Shown here: one piece after another, positions 651 through 54,312 of the stretch
Position numbering within the stretch: position 1 is the first letter of the stretch
How the letters are laid out: every line of letters begins with the position of its first letter
Source of the DNA: Alphaproteobacteria bacterium
GTDB taxonomy: Bacteria; Pseudomonadota; Alphaproteobacteria; CAAHEQ01; UBA3637
Reading direction: 5' to 3'
Assembly (NCBI GenBank): GCA_017467335.1
Contig: JAFTSJ010000041.1
Location: 1-54,312 of the forward strand
DNA length: 54,312 nt
The notes under the pieces: model-generated
Told to the model about the DNA's origin: nothing
Database searches by the model: none
The model's input: the letters and a program-made list of their open reading frames with translations, nothing else
Translations under genes and position numbers: made by a program

Positions 651-1253
651 ATGGCAGTTATTGGCTACATCAGAGTTTCAACAGATAAACAAACCTGTGA
701 ACATCAAAAATATGAAATTAAACAATTCGCAAAAGCTCAAAAAGTCAAAATTACGCATTGGATTGAAGAAACTATTTCATCCAGAAAATCTTTAGATAAA
801 AGAAAATTAGGAAAATTACTTCAAAGTATGAAAGCCGGAGATATCCTGATTTCTTGTGAAATATCTCGTTTGGGACGTTCCATGTTAGAGGTTATGCGTA
901 TATTGGAGACTTGTTTAAACAAAGAATGTCAGGTCTGGACAATAAAAGAAAATTTTAGGCTAGGCGCAGATATTCAATCAAAAGTAATGGCATTTGCTTT
1001 TGGTATATCGGCTGAAATTGAACGCAGTTTAATATCTCAACGGACAAAATCATCTTTGGCAAACATAAAAGCCAGCGGTAAAAAACTGGGCCGTCCATTC
1101 TCAGCCACAAGCAAGAAATTAAAACTGTCAAAGAATTCAAAGCGAGTCAAAGATTTATTGGATAAAGGCGTTTCAAAAGCTCAAATTGCTAAAGTTATGG
1201 GTGTTGGACGCACAACGCTTCGGCGTTTTATCTCTCGTCAAGGGTGGGCTTAA
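651..1253 (+). CDS. Serine recombinase (DNA invertase/resolvase, Mpi-like)
   Basis: The 200-aa protein starts at 651, with GAGGAGG just upstream; the in-frame ATG at 636 lies in front of that site. The N-terminal catalytic domain begins G-Y-I-R-V-S-T-D-K-Q, with the nucleophilic Ser in the R-V-S-T motif. It continues through I-S-R-L-G-R-S (about 75-81) and A-E-I-E-R-S-L-I-S-Q-R-T (about 130-141). A C-terminal helix-turn-helix follows (about 168-195: L-L-D-K-G-V-S-K-A-Q-I-A-K-V-M-G-V). The closest family by eye is the Bacteroides master invertase (Mpi) type of small invertases, which act on promoters flanked by short palindromic sites. A candidate site pair (1368-1393, 6848-6873) lies immediately downstream. 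A terminator follows the stop. Confidence 0.93.
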   Translation: MAVIGYIRVSTDKQTCEHQKYEIKQFAKAQKVKITHWIEETISSRKSLDKRKLGKLLQSMKAGDILISCEISRLGRSMLEVMRILETCLNKECQVWTIKENFRLGADIQSKVMAFAFGISAEIERSLISQRTKSSLANIKASGKKLGRPFSATSKKLKLSKNSKRVKDLLDKGVSKAQIAKVMGVGRTTLRRFISRQGWA

Positions 1254-47896: not shown

Positions 47897-50806
47897 TTAT
47901 TTCGGTGAGGGTGTGGCAGATGAAGCAGATGTTGAACAGGTTCTTTCTCCATCAGAGCAATGGCATGATTGCGTTCCGATAATTATACCGTTGTTTGATA
48001 CGGATGGACAATATGATAATGTTGTTGTTTCAATTCGTCCGGCGGAATTATTTACAACAGCATATCCGGCTCCGTCACCATCCAGTCCCTTGCTTTCTGT
48101 ATAAACACTATCAGCAATCATGCTGTTTGCGTAAATAGTACCTGTATTGGATAATCCTATTCCACTATTTGACATAGATGCTTCCCCCATAATTTGAATA
48201 ACATTTGCCGTGATTGAGCCAGTGTTATATAAAGCATTCCCACGTCCGGTTGTATCAATGGTTTGAGCTGTTATTGTCCCACTATTTGTAATACCATCCC
48301 CGCCTTCGACCGTTAATTTGTTATTCACGGTTAGGGTTCCTTGATTGACAAATCCAATATAAAGTCCGGGGGATGAATTTTTAGATACAATGTTATCAGC
48401 AACAATGGTACCTATATTTTTAATTCCGTTATCACCATCTTCAACCATGTTAATATTTTGAACGGTTAATACAACATCTTGATTAACGGTTAATTTGCCA
48501 TCAACTGTTAAATCACATTGTCCGATATTTAAATCGGAAACAATCGTTAAATCTTCATTAACTGTGATATCTGTTCCGGCTGTATCAGCATTTGTATAAG
48601 AAGACATCGCTTGGGCACAGGTAATACAGACATTGTTGCTGTTTGCCGCTTGCTGACATTGTTCAACACACGTTGTCCCGTCAAAATAAGGGGCGTTGTC
48701 TGAACAAGGATTTGGACAATCGCATCCGTCAGCACATGCAACAATGACATCGCCGTCAATCGTTGTATTTTCTAATGATGGACAATAATACAATATGCCA
48801 TTATTGAAAAATGAACCGTTTTCACTGGCAATTCCGTTCGGACTGAACAAAGTTGTTTCACCGTACATATTAGAAGTTGTATCACGTGCGGCTGTTATTT
48901 CACCTTGCATTGTAACGTGACCGTAAGAAGTTGAATCAACATCAATTGTAGAACTAACTGCTCCTATTCCTATTTTGGAAACAATGCTGATATCAGCTTC
49001 AACGTGACCGACAACAGCAAAGTTTTCAGCTCCGACAGCATCGGCAGTTATTGATATTGTTCCCTGAGCATTATGAATACTTGTACCTTTAATGCCAATA
49101 CCGTTTTCTTTAGGATTATTGATTATCAAAGACCCATTCAGGTTGCTGATTTGGTAGCCTTCCGATGAAAGCATAGCCTTGATAACACAATGAGATATTT
49201 CATTATTCATATCAACATCTCCTAATAAAACAACATCTTCTATAATGGCTACACCATCTGAATCTATCGCCATGTTAACAACTAAATCTTCTTCTGTTAT
49301 TTCATCTAAATTTTTTGTTTCCAAAACCCGTGCGGCAATCAAGTTATTCCACAATGGTTGGCAACCACTGGCTTCAACACATTCTCCTTGCTGATTAAGT
49401 GCTTCAAAACGACCGCATGTCGGACTATTTGACGTTGAATTATCATCTTCAGTGCTTGTTCCACCTTTGTCATAACATGTATTTTCATCGCTGTTGTAAG
49501 TTAAGCCTTCGGCACAGGCACATCGGGTGTTGTTATCAAATACCTGACGAGGAGATTCGCATTTTACACAATTATTACCCGAAGAATAATAATTGCCGGA
49601 GCATTGGCATTCTTGCGTAGAACTATTCCATACTTTTCCTGTTCCGCTACAATATGTTTGACATTTGTTCCCATAGTATCCGGTAGAACATTGGCATATT
49701 TGCATACTGTCATTCCAAGTCCCGTTTGAACCACAATCTTGTGTTTCAATGATTGAATCATCATCTTCTAACCCATCATCAGTTGTATTATCATCCGGAT
49801 TAGGTGTTGTTCCGCCGGTGTTTCCGTTTGTTTCAGTGTTATCATCTGTAACATCATCATCGTTAGAATTGTCTTTGTTATCTTCCGGATTAGTATTTGT
49901 GTTTGAATCATCGGTCGAATCGGAACTATTATCAGCATTTTCGCCAGAAGAATCTGTTGTTCCTGAACCTGTATTTGATGAACCTGTATTACCATTGTTA
50001 CCGGTTGTTCCTCCGGTTGTTCCTCCGGTTGTACCACTACCGGTATTTCCTCCTGTGTTACCATTGCCACCGGTATTACTTCCTGATGAACCACTATTAC
50101 CACCGGAACCACTGTTTCCGCTTCCTGAACTACTATTTCCGCCTCCGGATGGATTCGAATTGTTACCGTTGTTTTCGGTATTATTCGAGTTGTTATTTTC
50201 TCCTGTTTCGTTATCAATATAGCCCACATCTGTGTTTGTATAGGCAAAAACAAAACGGAAACGGACACTTATGTCATCTGCATCTGTTTCAATATCACAA
50301 GGATGACTTGTATCAGCTGAAAGTGTTGCATTAACAGCAACAACATCTGTATCAGAACCACCACCGGTAGAAGTACTATCGACAATCATTTCATCCGGCA
50401 AAGCCCAGTTGCTGTTTACAATAATCTGACATTGACGTTTACTTAAATCATGAACAACAATATCAAATGCTTGGCATGTATCTTCGGAGGTGCATTTATC
50501 AGTATAAACGTTCCAATCAAAATCTTCGGGATGAGGATAAATTTTAATTGTTTTTCCAGAACCGGTTAGTTCATTGTAATTTTGAATTTCTGTAACATAA
50601 GGGAGTTCTTTATCACTAAAATTGGTTAAAATATCATAACCTCGAATGTTTGTTTCATTGAGTATGTCATTCGCAATATATTTATCCATGGCATAGCTAT
50701 AACCTTCAATGCCGGCAATTGAAAGTACACCAATAACAGCCAAAACACCCAACATTTCAACCATGCTTCGACCATCATCAGATTGCTTGAAAAAATGTTT
50801 AATCAT
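47897..50806 (-). CDS. Giant pilin-like adhesin with Cys-rich and repeat domains
   Basis: The 969-aa protein begins with a prepilin-type leader: Gly12 followed by R-S-M-V-E, with Glu17 at +5, and a hydrophobic helix (L-G-V-L-A-V-I-G-V-L-S-I-A-G). Residues ~40-200 form a small pilin-like globular part with Cys pairs. About 205-355 is a Gly/Asn/Ser/Thr-rich, later Asp-rich, linker. About 360-460 holds EGF-like Cys modules (C-x-C-S-x-G-Y-Y-G-N-K-C). From about 500 on, short repeats such as N-x-G-T-I-x-A-N predict a right-handed beta-helix, interrupted by a second Cys cluster near 690. Normal pilins are ~150 aa. A surface fibre-tip adhesin is likely. Start behind GGGGGG. Confidence 0.82.
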   Translation of the reverse strand: MIKHFFKQSDDGRSMVEMLGVLAVIGVLSIAGIEGYSYAMDKYIANDILNETNIRGYDILTNFSDKELPYVTEIQNYNELTGSGKTIKIYPHPEDFDWNVYTDKCTSEDTCQAFDIVVHDLSKRQCQIIVNSNWALPDEMIVDSTSTGGGSDTDVVAVNATLSADTSHPCDIETDADDISVRFRFVFAYTNTDVGYIDNETGENNNSNNTENNGNNSNPSGGGNSSSGSGNSGSGGNSGSSGSNTGGNGNTGGNTGSGTTGGTTGGTTGNNGNTGSSNTGSGTTDSSGENADNSSDSTDDSNTNTNPEDNKDNSNDDDVTDDNTETNGNTGGTTPNPDDNTTDDGLEDDDSIIETQDCGSNGTWNDSMQICQCSTGYYGNKCQTYCSGTGKVWNSSTQECQCSGNYYSSGNNCVKCESPRQVFDNNTRCACAEGLTYNSDENTCYDKGGTSTEDDNSTSNSPTCGRFEALNQQGECVEASGCQPLWNNLIAARVLETKNLDEITEEDLVVNMAIDSDGVAIIEDVVLLGDVDMNNEISHCVIKAMLSSEGYQISNLNGSLIINNPKENGIGIKGTSIHNAQGTISITADAVGAENFAVVGHVEADISIVSKIGIGAVSSTIDVDSTSYGHVTMQGEITAARDTTSNMYGETTLFSPNGIASENGSFFNNGILYYCPSLENTTIDGDVIVACADGCDCPNPCSDNAPYFDGTTCVEQCQQAANSNNVCITCAQAMSSYTNADTAGTDITVNEDLTIVSDLNIGQCDLTVDGKLTVNQDVVLTVQNINMVEDGDNGIKNIGTIVADNIVSKNSSPGLYIGFVNQGTLTVNNKLTVEGGDGITNSGTITAQTIDTTGRGNALYNTGSITANVIQIMGEASMSNSGIGLSNTGTIYANSMIADSVYTESKGLDGDGAGYAVVNNSAGRIETTTLSYCPSVSNNGIIIGTQSCHCSDGERTCSTSASSATPSPK
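50001..50036. repeat. 12-bp tandem repeats in the adhesin linker
   Basis: CCGGTTGTTCCT occurs twice in tandem (50001-50024), followed by a near copy (50025-50036). On the coding strand it encodes Gly-Gly-Thr-Thr-type steps in the low-complexity linker. Copy-number change would alter linker length in frame. Confidence 0.75.
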
Positions 50807-50937: not shown

Positions 50938-52634
50938 TTATTCGTTTGGGGTATCTGTTTCGCCTCGTAAATAACGATGACCGCCCCATTTGGGATCAGA
51001 TTTATTTTGAATATATAATTTGTATGAGCCATCAAATTCAAAATGTGTGTGGTATGAGCCGACTTGTGTTGAAGGATATCCGTATGACGGCGGTAATATT
51101 AACGGATTTTTATCATGTAAATATTTATTTAAATGCGATTCATCATGCCAAAGAGCCATTACACCGTTTTTTTCATCCGTTATTACATTTAATGCAATCG
51201 TATCAATCAGTTTTTTAAATGCTTTTGCTGTACCGCCATTAAACCCACCCATGTAATAGTATTCCTGTTTCTGCATTGACGCATGCGGGGGGGGGTATGT
51301 TGAATGTATGCTGTTGAACGTGGATTCCGATCATAAGGGAAGGGTGGTTTTGTTTTATAATATCCCGGATGTAATGTTGCCATAATTCCTTGCTTATTTG
51401 TTGGAAAAATTTCATGACCAACCGGACGTATCGCTAGCATATTCGCATTTAAAAAATACATATAGTCAAAATCTTTTAATTGCTCCCATGCTTGTTGAAA
51501 TAAATTATAGCGGTAAAGCGTTGCTTTGGGAAAACCTAAATTAGGCGTGTCAATTCTAACAACATTGTCAGGGAACTTTCGTTTGCTGTCTGTCCATACA
51601 AAATATGTTTTATCGTCATATGGTAAAAAGTTTTTTTCCATCGATTGATAAAATTCATCAAAAAAGACAATATAGCGACCTGTTGCAATGTGCAAAATTG
51701 CAACTTTTGCCGGACGTGTCGGTAACTTAACCCAATCTTCAGATACAATCTGATTGACAAATTCAGGTCGATGTTTTAGCCAAATATCAGGAGCAACAAC
51801 AATTTTGTGCGGATTTTCATTCAGCCATGCTCCCCACCATGAAAACGTTGAATTAGCAATAATATTATGTTTGCAAAGGCTCATTAAACGCATATCATTG
51901 TAACTGTAATTTCCTTGGTTATGTTCAACAAATGTATGCGGATACGGGATTTTAAGATTTTCTTTAACCCATGCCATATCATCTGAAAAAATATAAAAAT
52001 GAGGATTTTCAACACGTTCAGCCATATATTCAGTTGCTATTTTATAATAATATAAGGGTAATACGTGTTGTGCATTTTTTGAATATAAATAATCGCCTCT
52101 CCGAATATGTACAGATATGGAATTATGACTTTGAATTTGTTTAATCAGTTTTTTATTCGTATCTGATAATCCCTTTTTAAAACGAAAGGCTTTTAAAATT
52201 TCCGAACGATATTTTTTAAAATATTTTTCATTCTGAAAATGACCGAAAAAATAAATATATTTATCGTTATCGTAAAAAGTTCCTTTGTTATCATCAGAAA
52301 AATGAATCCCTTTGAAAGGAACTTTTTTATTTTTTAAATTTGTCCAAACTGGGATGTCTTCATGTTCGGGTGTATTTAATTGAATATCAAAAGCATTTGT
52401 TAACTTAAACGTATCCCCCTCAACATATAATTTTTTATTATATTCCAAAGAATAAGCCAAAGCTGTTGCATACTGAAACATATTATTTCCTAAGCCGTAA
52501 AAAATGCCGACTTGAACAACTCTTTGTTCGGGGGGGCGTTTATCCGGTTCAGGCATACAAAAATACATTCCCCCAAATCCGATAAGCACGCTAAAAATAA
52601 AAACAATAATACCGATAATAAACTTTAATTTCAT
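50938..52634 (-). pseudogene. Phase-variable GT11-GT6 fusion glycosyltransferase (frame broken at C9)
   Basis: From ATG 52634 (behind AGGGGAAA) the frame encodes a membrane anchor (about 4-27). A family 11 fucosyltransferase domain follows (G-L-G-N-N-M-F-Q-Y-A-T-A; H-I-R-R-G-D-Y near 172; N-S-T-F-S-W-W-G-A-W). The start of a family 6 domain comes next (T-L-Y-R-Y-N-L-F; F-L-N-A-N-M near 396). At the coding-strand C9 run (51295-51287) the frame shifts and ends at 51207. The rest of the GT6 domain (Y-Y-M-G-G-F-N-G-G; A-L-W-H-D-E-S-H-L-N-K-Y) lies in another frame to 50938. With ten or seven C the whole reads as one ~565-aa protein. GT11 makes alpha-1,2-fucosides; GT6 adds alpha-1,3 Gal or GalNAc. 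Confidence 0.85.
51287..51295. repeat. Homopolymeric G9/C9 tract
   Basis: Nine G on the plus strand, that is nine C in the coding strand of the glycosyltransferase gene, exactly at the point where the two parts of the GT6 domain change frame. Such tracts change length by slipped-strand replication errors. A second run of seven (52530-52536) lies near codon 33 of the same gene and is currently in frame. Confidence 0.9.
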
Positions 52635-52684: not shown

Positions 52685-52859
52685 TAATAAAAATATGTGC
52701 TTGATAAAACAATTGGTTATTTTTGTTATCTTTTCAAACGAATCGGTTTAAATGCTTATTTTTCATCAAATAATCATTTTAAAACACATCAAAAAAATCG
52801 TTTAAAAATTTTCCAAACAGCAAAAATAAAAAGACAGTTAAATCAATGTATTATCTTTT

Positions 52860-52889
52860 AAAAATGTGTCAAAAAAACGTCCCTTTTTT
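52860..52889. repeat. Left inverted repeat of a putative invertible element
   Basis: This 30-bp sequence is the exact reverse complement of 53001-53030. Inside and just beyond it, TGTCAAAAAAA, CGTCCC and TTTTTTTGACA (52867-52894) form an 11-6-11 palindrome. That is the layout of Xer/dif-type tyrosine-recombinase core sites, with an asymmetric 6-bp centre. Confidence 0.9.
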
Positions 52890-52893
52890 TGAC

Positions 52894-52922
52894 ATAATAT
52901 TTTAGATTTATTTCATTGTCAA
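52894..52922 (-). promoter_or_regulatory. Near-consensus promoter inside the inverted-repeat segment
   Basis: On the minus strand TTGACA (52922-52917), a 17-bp spacer and TATTAT (52899-52894). It now points left, toward the GT11-GT6 gene. If 52860-53030 were flipped, it would occupy about 52968-52996 and point right, with the pilin-like start codon about 75 nt downstream of the expected start site. Confidence 0.8.
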
Positions 52923-53000
52923 CTAAAATTTGTAATTATTTGATTTTTCATTATTTTTTTGTTTTTAAAAAAGTGTAACCCCTGCCAAAAAAAAGCGTTC

Positions 53001-53030
53001 AAAAAAGGGACGTTTTTTTGACACATTTTT
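53001..53030. repeat. Right inverted repeat of a putative invertible element
   Basis: Exact 30-bp partner of 52860-52889, with 111 bp between them. The central hexamer reads GGGACG here and CGTCCC on the left, so the sites are in head-to-head orientation, as inversion requires. The palindromic arms are slightly shorter on the inner side (one T fewer). Confidence 0.9.
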
Positions 53031-53075
53031 GAAAAATAACTGTCTGATTTTGTTAATTTTTGTTATGAGGGCTTT

Positions 53076-54312
53076 ATGAAAATTTTAAACACTTTTTTAA
53101 ACGGATATTTTAAACAAAAAACAGCTGAAACCGGACGCAGTATGGTGGAAATCTTGGGCGTTTTGGCGATTATCGGGGTATTGAGTATCGGTGGGATTTA
53201 TGGTTACACCTTTGCGATGGACAAATATCGGGCAAACGATATTATCTATGAAGTCAATTTACGGAATCGAGATACATGGAATAAATATCAAGATAAAGAT
53301 TTACCTGAAGCCGAAGAACTCGATGAATGGGCTGATACAACGCAAACAGGCTTTCCGATTGGAGTTTATCCTCGTTCAAACATTGTGTTTGATGTGCAGG
53401 TAGATGATGTCCCTTCACGGGTTTGTAAACAAGTACTGAATATGAACATTGACGGTCCACTGTTTATTTGGACACCGTCCGAAGACGGTAAAAAACAAAT
53501 CTTTACCGGTAATGCGTCCGAACTATGCGGTGAAGATATTGAAACATCGATTGTTTTTACAACATCGCTTGATTCTTACGGACAAGATGAAGGATTGCGA
53601 CAAGGGGCAACCGATGAAAACGGGCGTCCGTTACGGTATTGTTTAGATGATGAAGATTGTTTTTCTTGTCAAACATGTGATGTGGGAACATATACGTGTC
53701 AATCCACATGCCCAGATGCAACACCGATTTGCCATAGCACATTGCAACAATGCGTTGCCTGTGAAGATAACAGTGATTGTGCCAATAATCAAATTTGTTC
53801 GGAATACAATGAAGAAACAGGGGAAAGTCAGGTTTGTGTAACGGTTGAAGAAACATGTGCCGAAGGCGAATTTCGTTCCCAAAACGGGGCGTGTATTCCA
53901 TGTGATTATCCGGCTAATGTCTTGATTAAGCCGGATGAAACATTTATGAATGATACAGGCACGGGAAAAGAGTTATGTTTAGCTTGTCCGAATAGCAGAC
54001 GAGTTGAAGGGAATGGCGAAAAAATGTATTGTTCACAATATTGTACGAATGGATTTAGTTTCGCTGATACAAGCACAACGTGTCATGCCTGTTCGGATAC
54101 AGCCAAAGGTGTTTGGTCTCTTATGGGTGGAGATGAAAATGCTCAAAAATGTCTTGATTGTTCAGATAAACATTATTGGTTTCATACAGGTAATGGCGGG
54201 CAAAACAATTGTTCTACCATAAAATCTTGTTCGGAGGGGGAATATTATTATCCGACAAGAACAAAAATTTGTCATCAATGTAATCATAGTTCCGGAACGG
54301 CTTCTAATCCGG
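53076..54312 (+). CDS. Cys-rich pilin-like surface protein (partial)
   Basis: From ATG 53076 (GAGGG upstream) the frame is open for 412 codons to the window edge. A prepilin-type leader has Gly20 followed by R-S-M-V-E with Glu25 at +5, and a helix L-G-V-L-A-I-I-G-V-L-S-I. The pilin part A-M-D-K-Y-R-A-N-D-I-I-Y-E-V-N-L-R closely matches the adhesin at 47897-50806. From about 190 the protein is packed with Cys pairs (C-x2-C, C-x-C-x) like granulin or EGF modules, implying many disulfides. It probably needs periplasmic oxidation, for example by the DsbA-like protein. The only rightward promoter in the present orientation is weak (TTGAAA-17-GTTAAT at 53029). Confidence 0.83.
   Translation, partial: MKILNTFLNGYFKQKTAETGRSMVEILGVLAIIGVLSIGGIYGYTFAMDKYRANDIIYEVNLRNRDTWNKYQDKDLPEAEELDEWADTTQTGFPIGVYPRSNIVFDVQVDDVPSRVCKQVLNMNIDGPLFIWTPSEDGKKQIFTGNASELCGEDIETSIVFTTSLDSYGQDEGLRQGATDENGRPLRYCLDDEDCFSCQTCDVGTYTCQSTCPDATPICHSTLQQCVACEDNSDCANNQICSEYNEETGESQVCVTVEETCAEGEFRSQNGACIPCDYPANVLIKPDETFMNDTGTGKELCLACPNSRRVEGNGEKMYCSQYCTNGFSFADTSTTCHACSDTAKGVWSLMGGDENAQKCLDCSDKHYWFHTGNGGQNNCSTIKSCSEGEYYYPTRTKICHQCNHSSGTASNP

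Follow-up and report, generated by a model that had tools for sequence, protein, structure and literature searches.

Most known cases of programmed promoter inversion come from Bacteroidota, Verrucomicrobiota and some Firmicutes. The Mpi invertase of Bacteroides fragilis inverts 13 regions, seven of which are promoters of capsular polysaccharides (PMC4747536). Akkermansia muciniphila has a phase-variable capsule (PMC13343947), and 32 invertons of one inverted-repeat group were reported from a single strain; one gut strain contained 181 invertons of all kinds (PMC11892184). Inverton number alone is therefore not unprecedented. In Alphaproteobacteria, a survey recorded no inversion signal in the four samples that it included (PMC5903667).

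The locus described here lies at positions 52860–53030 of a 54,312-nucleotide stretch of alphaproteobacterial DNA (hereafter, the window). With a probability of roughly 0.87, it represents one of at least 36 near-identical invertible promoter cassettes (invertons) in its genome, and its promoter is turned ON or OFF by an invertase, most likely of the Mpi family. As in B. fragilis, many dispersed invertible promoters precede surface genes, and the candidate enzyme, a serine invertase, belongs to the same NCBIfam family (NF009949) and lies at a distance from most of its putative targets. Unlike the B. fragilis system, this one occurs in Alphaproteobacteria, with at least 36 cassettes here and as many as about 100 in a sister species; in place of capsule loci, its targets form a single family of pilin-like paralogues, the promoter is split in some species, and the link between enzyme and site is putative. 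The invertons of Akkermansia resemble it in that dozens share one repeat motif within one gut genome, but the phylum, the motif and the targets are different. Hin and Gin (e.g., the Salmonella flagellar switch) are likewise small serine invertases acting on head-to-head sites with an asymmetric center, although they serve one site pair, whereas here one site family is found at dozens of loci. Phase variation of a pilus-type surface protein by DNA inversion is shared with Moraxella pilin inversion and Escherichia coli fim; however, each of those is a single-locus system, fim uses tyrosine recombinases, and in Moraxella the pilin genes themselves are inverted. No earlier description of a system such as this one was found in the openly licensed literature. 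As far as that literature shows, its occurrence in Alphaproteobacteria, its devotion to one pilin-like family, and the change of site and promoter design from species to species are new.

Anatomy of the Cassette

The features of the window that bear on the cassette were as follows.

651–1253, plus strand: Mpi-family serine DNA invertase, candidate switch enzyme (one of four intact; NF009949 score 275.5 bits, cut-off 272)
52767–52866, minus strand: far-side flank, conserved
52791–52822, minus strand: hairpin and T7, a candidate intrinsic terminator of the OFF-direction transcript
52860–52889, plus strand: left inverted-repeat arm, holding the promoter-side recombination site TGTCAAAAAAACGTCCCTTTTTTTGACA (52867–52894)
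52890–53000, no strand assigned: invertible interior, 111 bp, with about 8% mean pairwise difference between loci outside the promoter and sites
52894–52922, minus strand: promoter TTGACA-17-TATTAT, OFF, directed away from the pilin-like gene
53001–53030, minus strand: right inverted-repeat arm and second, gene-proximal site with a degenerate inner half
53031–53075, plus strand: gene-side flank, conserved, with the ribosome-binding site GAGGG at 53067–53071
53076–54311, plus strand: gene for a pilin-like, Cys-rich surface protein, the switch target (412 aa seen, open at the contig end)

The initial annotation had described two perfect 30-bp inverted repeats around 111 bp, a leftward TTGACA-17-TATTAT promoter, and a pilin-like gene starting at 53076, and each of these was recovered. 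The promoter hexamers were TTGACA (52922–52917) and TATTAT (52899–52894) on the minus strand, matching the consensus at 11 of 12 positions, and the open reading frame that begins at 53076 leaves the contig at its end. A promoter is thereby enclosed by head-to-head inverted repeats. The further claim that each repeat carries an 11-6-11 palindrome was borne out for the promoter-side site and failed for the second. The exact palindrome, TGTCAAAAAAA-CGTCCC-TTTTTTTGACA, was confined to the 28-nt promoter-side site, which extends 5 nt beyond the 30-bp arm. The gene-proximal site kept the outer half and the center, and its inner half was degenerate (TTTTTTGAACG). This degeneracy was found in 22 of 23 complete cassettes, which accordingly lacked the 11-6-11 palindromic core in both sites that would mark a Xer/dif system.

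The far side of the cassette was occupied by different, unrelated genes at almost every locus, usually running towards the cassette; at C45 the far-side gene was another pilin-like gene. Since the far-side genes are unrelated across loci, the switch has one target. A two-way switch between the pilin-like gene and the adjoining GT11-GT6 glycosyltransferase gene was rejected for this reason, and the earlier suggestion that the switch might add to the expression of the GT11-GT6 gene was not upheld. The glycosyltransferase gene itself (50941–52634, minus strand) contained a frame change at a G9 tract (51287–51295), with the GT6 domain split over two frames (profile positions 77–218 and 222–286), making this tract a candidate slipped-strand contingency locus beside the inverton.

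Read outwards from the cassette, the far flank contained a hairpin followed by T6 to T8. This hairpin was strong in many copies and weak in the window copy, with folding energies of −16 kcal/mol (z −4.9) for the copy on C35 and −3.7 kcal/mol (z −1.0) for the window. Covariation in the far-flank hairpin was not above that of shuffled alignments. The hairpin is suggestive of a terminator that would stop the OFF-direction transcript.

Copies and Orientation in the Genome

The genome containing the window (G000) comprises 46 contigs and 1,323,233 bases and is 93% complete; the window is contig 28. A search for other copies of the site, as the initial annotation had proposed, found 61 exact copies of its 23-nt form and 68 with up to three mismatches, compared with none for a reversed control pattern and zero chance matches expected from shuffles of the window. 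Most copies formed inverted pairs 134 nt apart. The exact site was absent from GTDB r220 outside its own genome and from IMG/VR.

The cassette (157 bp; 156–158 bp among complete copies) was present at no fewer than 36 loci, so that one site family occupies many dispersed positions, as in an Mpi-type system. This number, 36 distinct main-type loci derived from 39 far flanks, is a lower bound, as many contigs end inside cassettes and the genome is 93% complete; it leaves out two variant-site loci (C16 and C36:64810) and the mirrored artefact in which contig 46 ends. Gene-side flanks were found at 24 loci, with a GAGGG or GGGGG ribosome-binding site and the ATG always 24 nt past the flank motif. 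The promoter-side 28-nt site, the −35 and −10 hexamers and their 17-bp spacing were identical in all 23 complete cassettes. Mean pairwise differences between copies were 8% in the interior, 11% in the gene-side flank and 20% in the far flank. Sites and promoter that are invariant amid diverging surroundings have therefore been kept by selection. Mantel tests for shuffling of interiors and flanks gave values near zero, as did most adjacent-segment controls.

The two variant loci (G000:C16:31241 and C36:64854) had the site center CGTACC/GGTACG, the promoter TTGACA-TATCAT and a far-type flank, and both were cut by contig ends. At another locus (C46:364; L093), the cassette lay between two different pilin-like genes facing away from it, with gene flanks on both sides, which may reflect inter-locus recombination or misassembly. 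A single 10.7-kb inversion joining C46:364 with C46:11080 was considered and rejected, because C46:11080 has far flanks on both sides that are identical up to the contig end and is a mirrored assembly artefact.

Promoter direction could be read at 32 loci, 30 of them OFF (including the window) and two ON. Among complete cassettes with recognizable far and gene flanks, 18 of 19 were OFF and one (C39:6982) was ON; the 30:2 count adds C44:8, C8:318 and contig-end copies with a visible promoter. The copy at C7:339 was OFF, a second promoter match there being spurious. The ON copies faced a pilin-like gene (C39:6982) and a gene for a 435-aa Cys-rich protein with a signal-like N-terminus (C8:318). 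In the C39 copy, the end of the −10 hexamer was 79 nt from the ATG, close to the roughly 75 nt that had been predicted for a flipped window cassette. With a contig end no more than 300 bp away and arms of 30 bp, this copy could owe its ON call to a choice made by the assembler. Arms of 30 bp could let a short-read assembler pick the wrong orientation, and an independent case was therefore sought in sister species.

Orientation and Promoter Design in Congeneric Species

Two genomes of the same genus, G001 and G008, contained a diverged site, AAAAAAAGGGACGTATNAATGCAACA, in 101 and 26 copies, respectively. Across GTDB r220 this sister-type site was confined to the MAGs SIG53 and RGIG7750, of which RGIG7750 came from the rectum of a water buffalo, and it had no match in IMG/VR. 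In a G001 or G008 cassette, the sequence common to the two sites is limited to about 10 bp around AAAAGGGAC. The position of the pilin-like gene made 69 of the 88 copies read callable; 61 lay one way and eight had the opposite orientation, their segments being exchanged at the core. Because the shared core is so short, misassembly cannot explain this 61:8 distribution.

In these two species the −10 hexamer was fixed (TACACT, TATAAT or TATACT). In the majority state, the hexamer 17 bp upstream of it was CGGGAA or AGGGAA in 59 of 61 copies. A computed flip placed TTGCAT or TTGCAA exactly 17 bp from the fixed −10 in all 61 majority copies, and TTGCA(A/T) already stood at this distance in the eight minority copies, giving 69 of 69 overall. 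Given this exact 17-bp joining, inversion in G001 and G008 unites a moving −35 with a fixed −10 to form a split promoter, in contrast to the window's species, in which the whole promoter moves.

A third site, TTGCAWWAAWSGTACGTTTAATTTATRC, was found in four other congeners (135, 108, 54 and 21 copies in G004, G006, G007 and G009, respectively). Its copies (loci L325–L354) were inverted pairs about 140 bp apart, ahead of pilin-like genes, with a palindromic center, CGTACG, and a TTGCA −35-like hexamer in both arms. The inner arms were exchanged in a minority of third-type copies (L348, L350 and L352), with minority copies in G006 and G007. Inversion of this type may alter promoter strength or regulation rather than switch expression ON or OFF.

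Both orientations relative to fixed flanks thus occur, each at different paralogous loci, in the window's genome and in related genomes, which answers the initial proposal that orientation be compared among relatives (61:8 in G001 and G008, minority copies in G006 and G007). With opposite orientations in several congeners and promoter and sites invariant, the central claim of an invertible promoter for the pilin-like gene, presently OFF, is well supported.

Pilin-Like Target Genes

The genes downstream of the cassettes shared a prepilin-like N-terminus (GRSMVEILGVLAVIGVLSIGGIYGYTFAMDKY), with GR..VE and a hydrophobic helix, and diverged thereafter. Among seven complete long targets, six had 656–1008 aa and 7–8% Cys, and the seventh had 452 aa and 3% Cys. 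The switch-controlled proteins had no match among the pilin models of Pfam and NCBIfam. Residues 1–210 of the window protein, modelled with AlphaFold at low to moderate confidence (mean pLDDT 63), aligned best with type IVb pilins (Z 10.3, 2.6 Å over 109 residues); the minor pilins TcpB and CofB scored lower (Z 5.3–5.6). With moderate confidence, the N-terminal region of the switch target is predicted to adopt a type IVb pilin-like fold. Genome G000 also encodes a prepilin peptidase and secretion/assembly ATPases. A further pilin-like protein in the window (47897–50806, minus strand; 969 aa) contained a long linker rich in Ser, Asn, Gly and Thr, and its gene was not preceded by an invertible cassette.

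Candidate Recombinases

XerC and XerD have a single chromosomal role in most bacteria. Only two tyrosine recombinases were found in G000, one XerD-type (C2) and one XerC-type adjoining priA (C25), and G008 likewise had only two, of XerC/XerD type. G000 had no dedicated tyrosine recombinase besides XerC/XerD, of the kind that a fim-like switch would use. The NCBIfam “master DNA invertase Mpi family” of small serine enzymes was represented by more genes, with four intact members in G000, located at 651–1253 of the window and on C18, C27 and C38, three of them above the NF009949 cut-off and one just below; a truncated fifth member and one large phage-type serine enzyme were also present. The window invertase aligned with the Gin invertase (4m6f) and kept the catalytic Ser and the RLGRS motif. 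Within the taxonomic family, Mpi-family invertases occurred in 36 of 43 genomes (E ≤ 0.001), in 28 of them above the cut-off. The initial annotation had favored tyrosine (Xer/dif-like) recombination. As only XerC/XerD-type tyrosine recombinases stand against four intact Mpi-family invertases, which are widespread in the family, this assignment was not supported, and an Mpi-family serine invertase, one of four candidates, most likely flips the cassettes.

No cassette site adjoined any invertase gene. The window invertase was 98% identical to an enzyme of G008, and G001 lacked that enzyme though it has the same site type as G008. The one intact Mpi-family member of G001 (C26) lay at a conserved position following a small heat-shock-like gene, with 74–76% identity to members in G004, G006 and G007. 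G001, with the most second-type cassettes, also encoded two small (~200 aa) tyrosine recombinases (G001:C12:71129 and C12:131571).

The part of the window containing the Mpi-family invertase and a nucleotidyltransferase-like gene (458–2850) had 92–98% DNA identity to G008:C193, and the best pilin-like homologues between the window's species and G008 were about 66–75% identical. A further copy of the window invertase (98% amino acid identity) was located on contig 18. These identities suggest that the 458–2850 unit may have been recently transferred or may be mobile.

Discussion

We conclude that a master-invertase-type, multi-locus promoter-inversion system probably controls a pilin-like surface repertoire in Alphaproteobacteria. 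Each cassette stands before its own surface-type gene, which is nearly always pilin-like. A site-specific invertase would recombine the two head-to-head sites within one cassette and leave the complete promoter either facing the gene (ON) or facing away (OFF). With most cassettes OFF in the assembled genome, a cell would be expected to express few of its many variants at once. Flipping is probably frequent and reversible, transcription would follow cassette orientation, and the predicted outcome is phase or antigenic variation of the surface.

The cassettes could instead be flipped by XerC/XerD or another tyrosine recombinase acting on dif-like 11-6-11 sites. The promoter-side site has that palindromic layout with an asymmetric center, XerC- and XerD-type enzymes are encoded, and G001, the genome richest in cassettes, has further small tyrosine recombinases. 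We nevertheless regard a tyrosine recombinase as unlikely, in that the second site is without its inner palindromic half in almost every cassette, XerC/XerD usually have their one chromosomal role, and Mpi-family invertases are present throughout most of the family. The core shared across species, AAAAGG-GA-C, would fit a serine invertase with an asymmetric 2-bp core equally well.

It is less probable still that the orientation differences are old, rare inversions around fixed operators, the palindromes binding a regulator or forming terminators. The site arms do extend into the −10 region and would form part of the 5′ leader, and one orientation predominates in both data sets (30:2 and 61:8). 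Yet the sites are paired in all three diverged versions and mutually inverted around an asymmetric core in two of the three, minority copies keep the exact promoter spacing, and the system occurs together with invertase genes. A MITE or REP/BIME-like transposable element, non-coding and dispersed, with an incidental promoter and no programmed inversion, was raised by the more than 60 site copies: these are short, near-identical, bounded by inverted ends, and break the assembly at many contig ends. This reading was rejected as very improbable because the copies have their flanks and target genes in common, homology passing beyond the repeats into about 90 bp of far flank, the gene-side flank and the gene start. 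Moreover, nearly all copies occupy the same position upstream of a single gene family, the repeat ends are without a target-site pattern, and a minority orientation exists relative to fixed flanks.

Beyond the invertible cassette itself, we consider it somewhat more probable than not that the genus as a whole uses combinatorial surface variation, in which one invertase species would act on dozens to about 100 promoters, each before a different pilin-like gene and mostly OFF. Site and promoter architecture would have changed between species as the arrangement stayed, and Alphaproteobacteria would thereby gain their first known example of such a repertoire. In a reduced genome of 1.3–1.8 Mb, from uncultured gut-type alphaproteobacteria, between dozens and about 100 loci seem to be given over to switchable pilin-like genes. 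Three site families and two promoter designs that share one layout within a single genus make a clean natural experiment, in which existing metagenome reads would allow tests of the co-evolution of invertase and site and of what governs sparse surface expression (immune escape, phage escape, adhesion).
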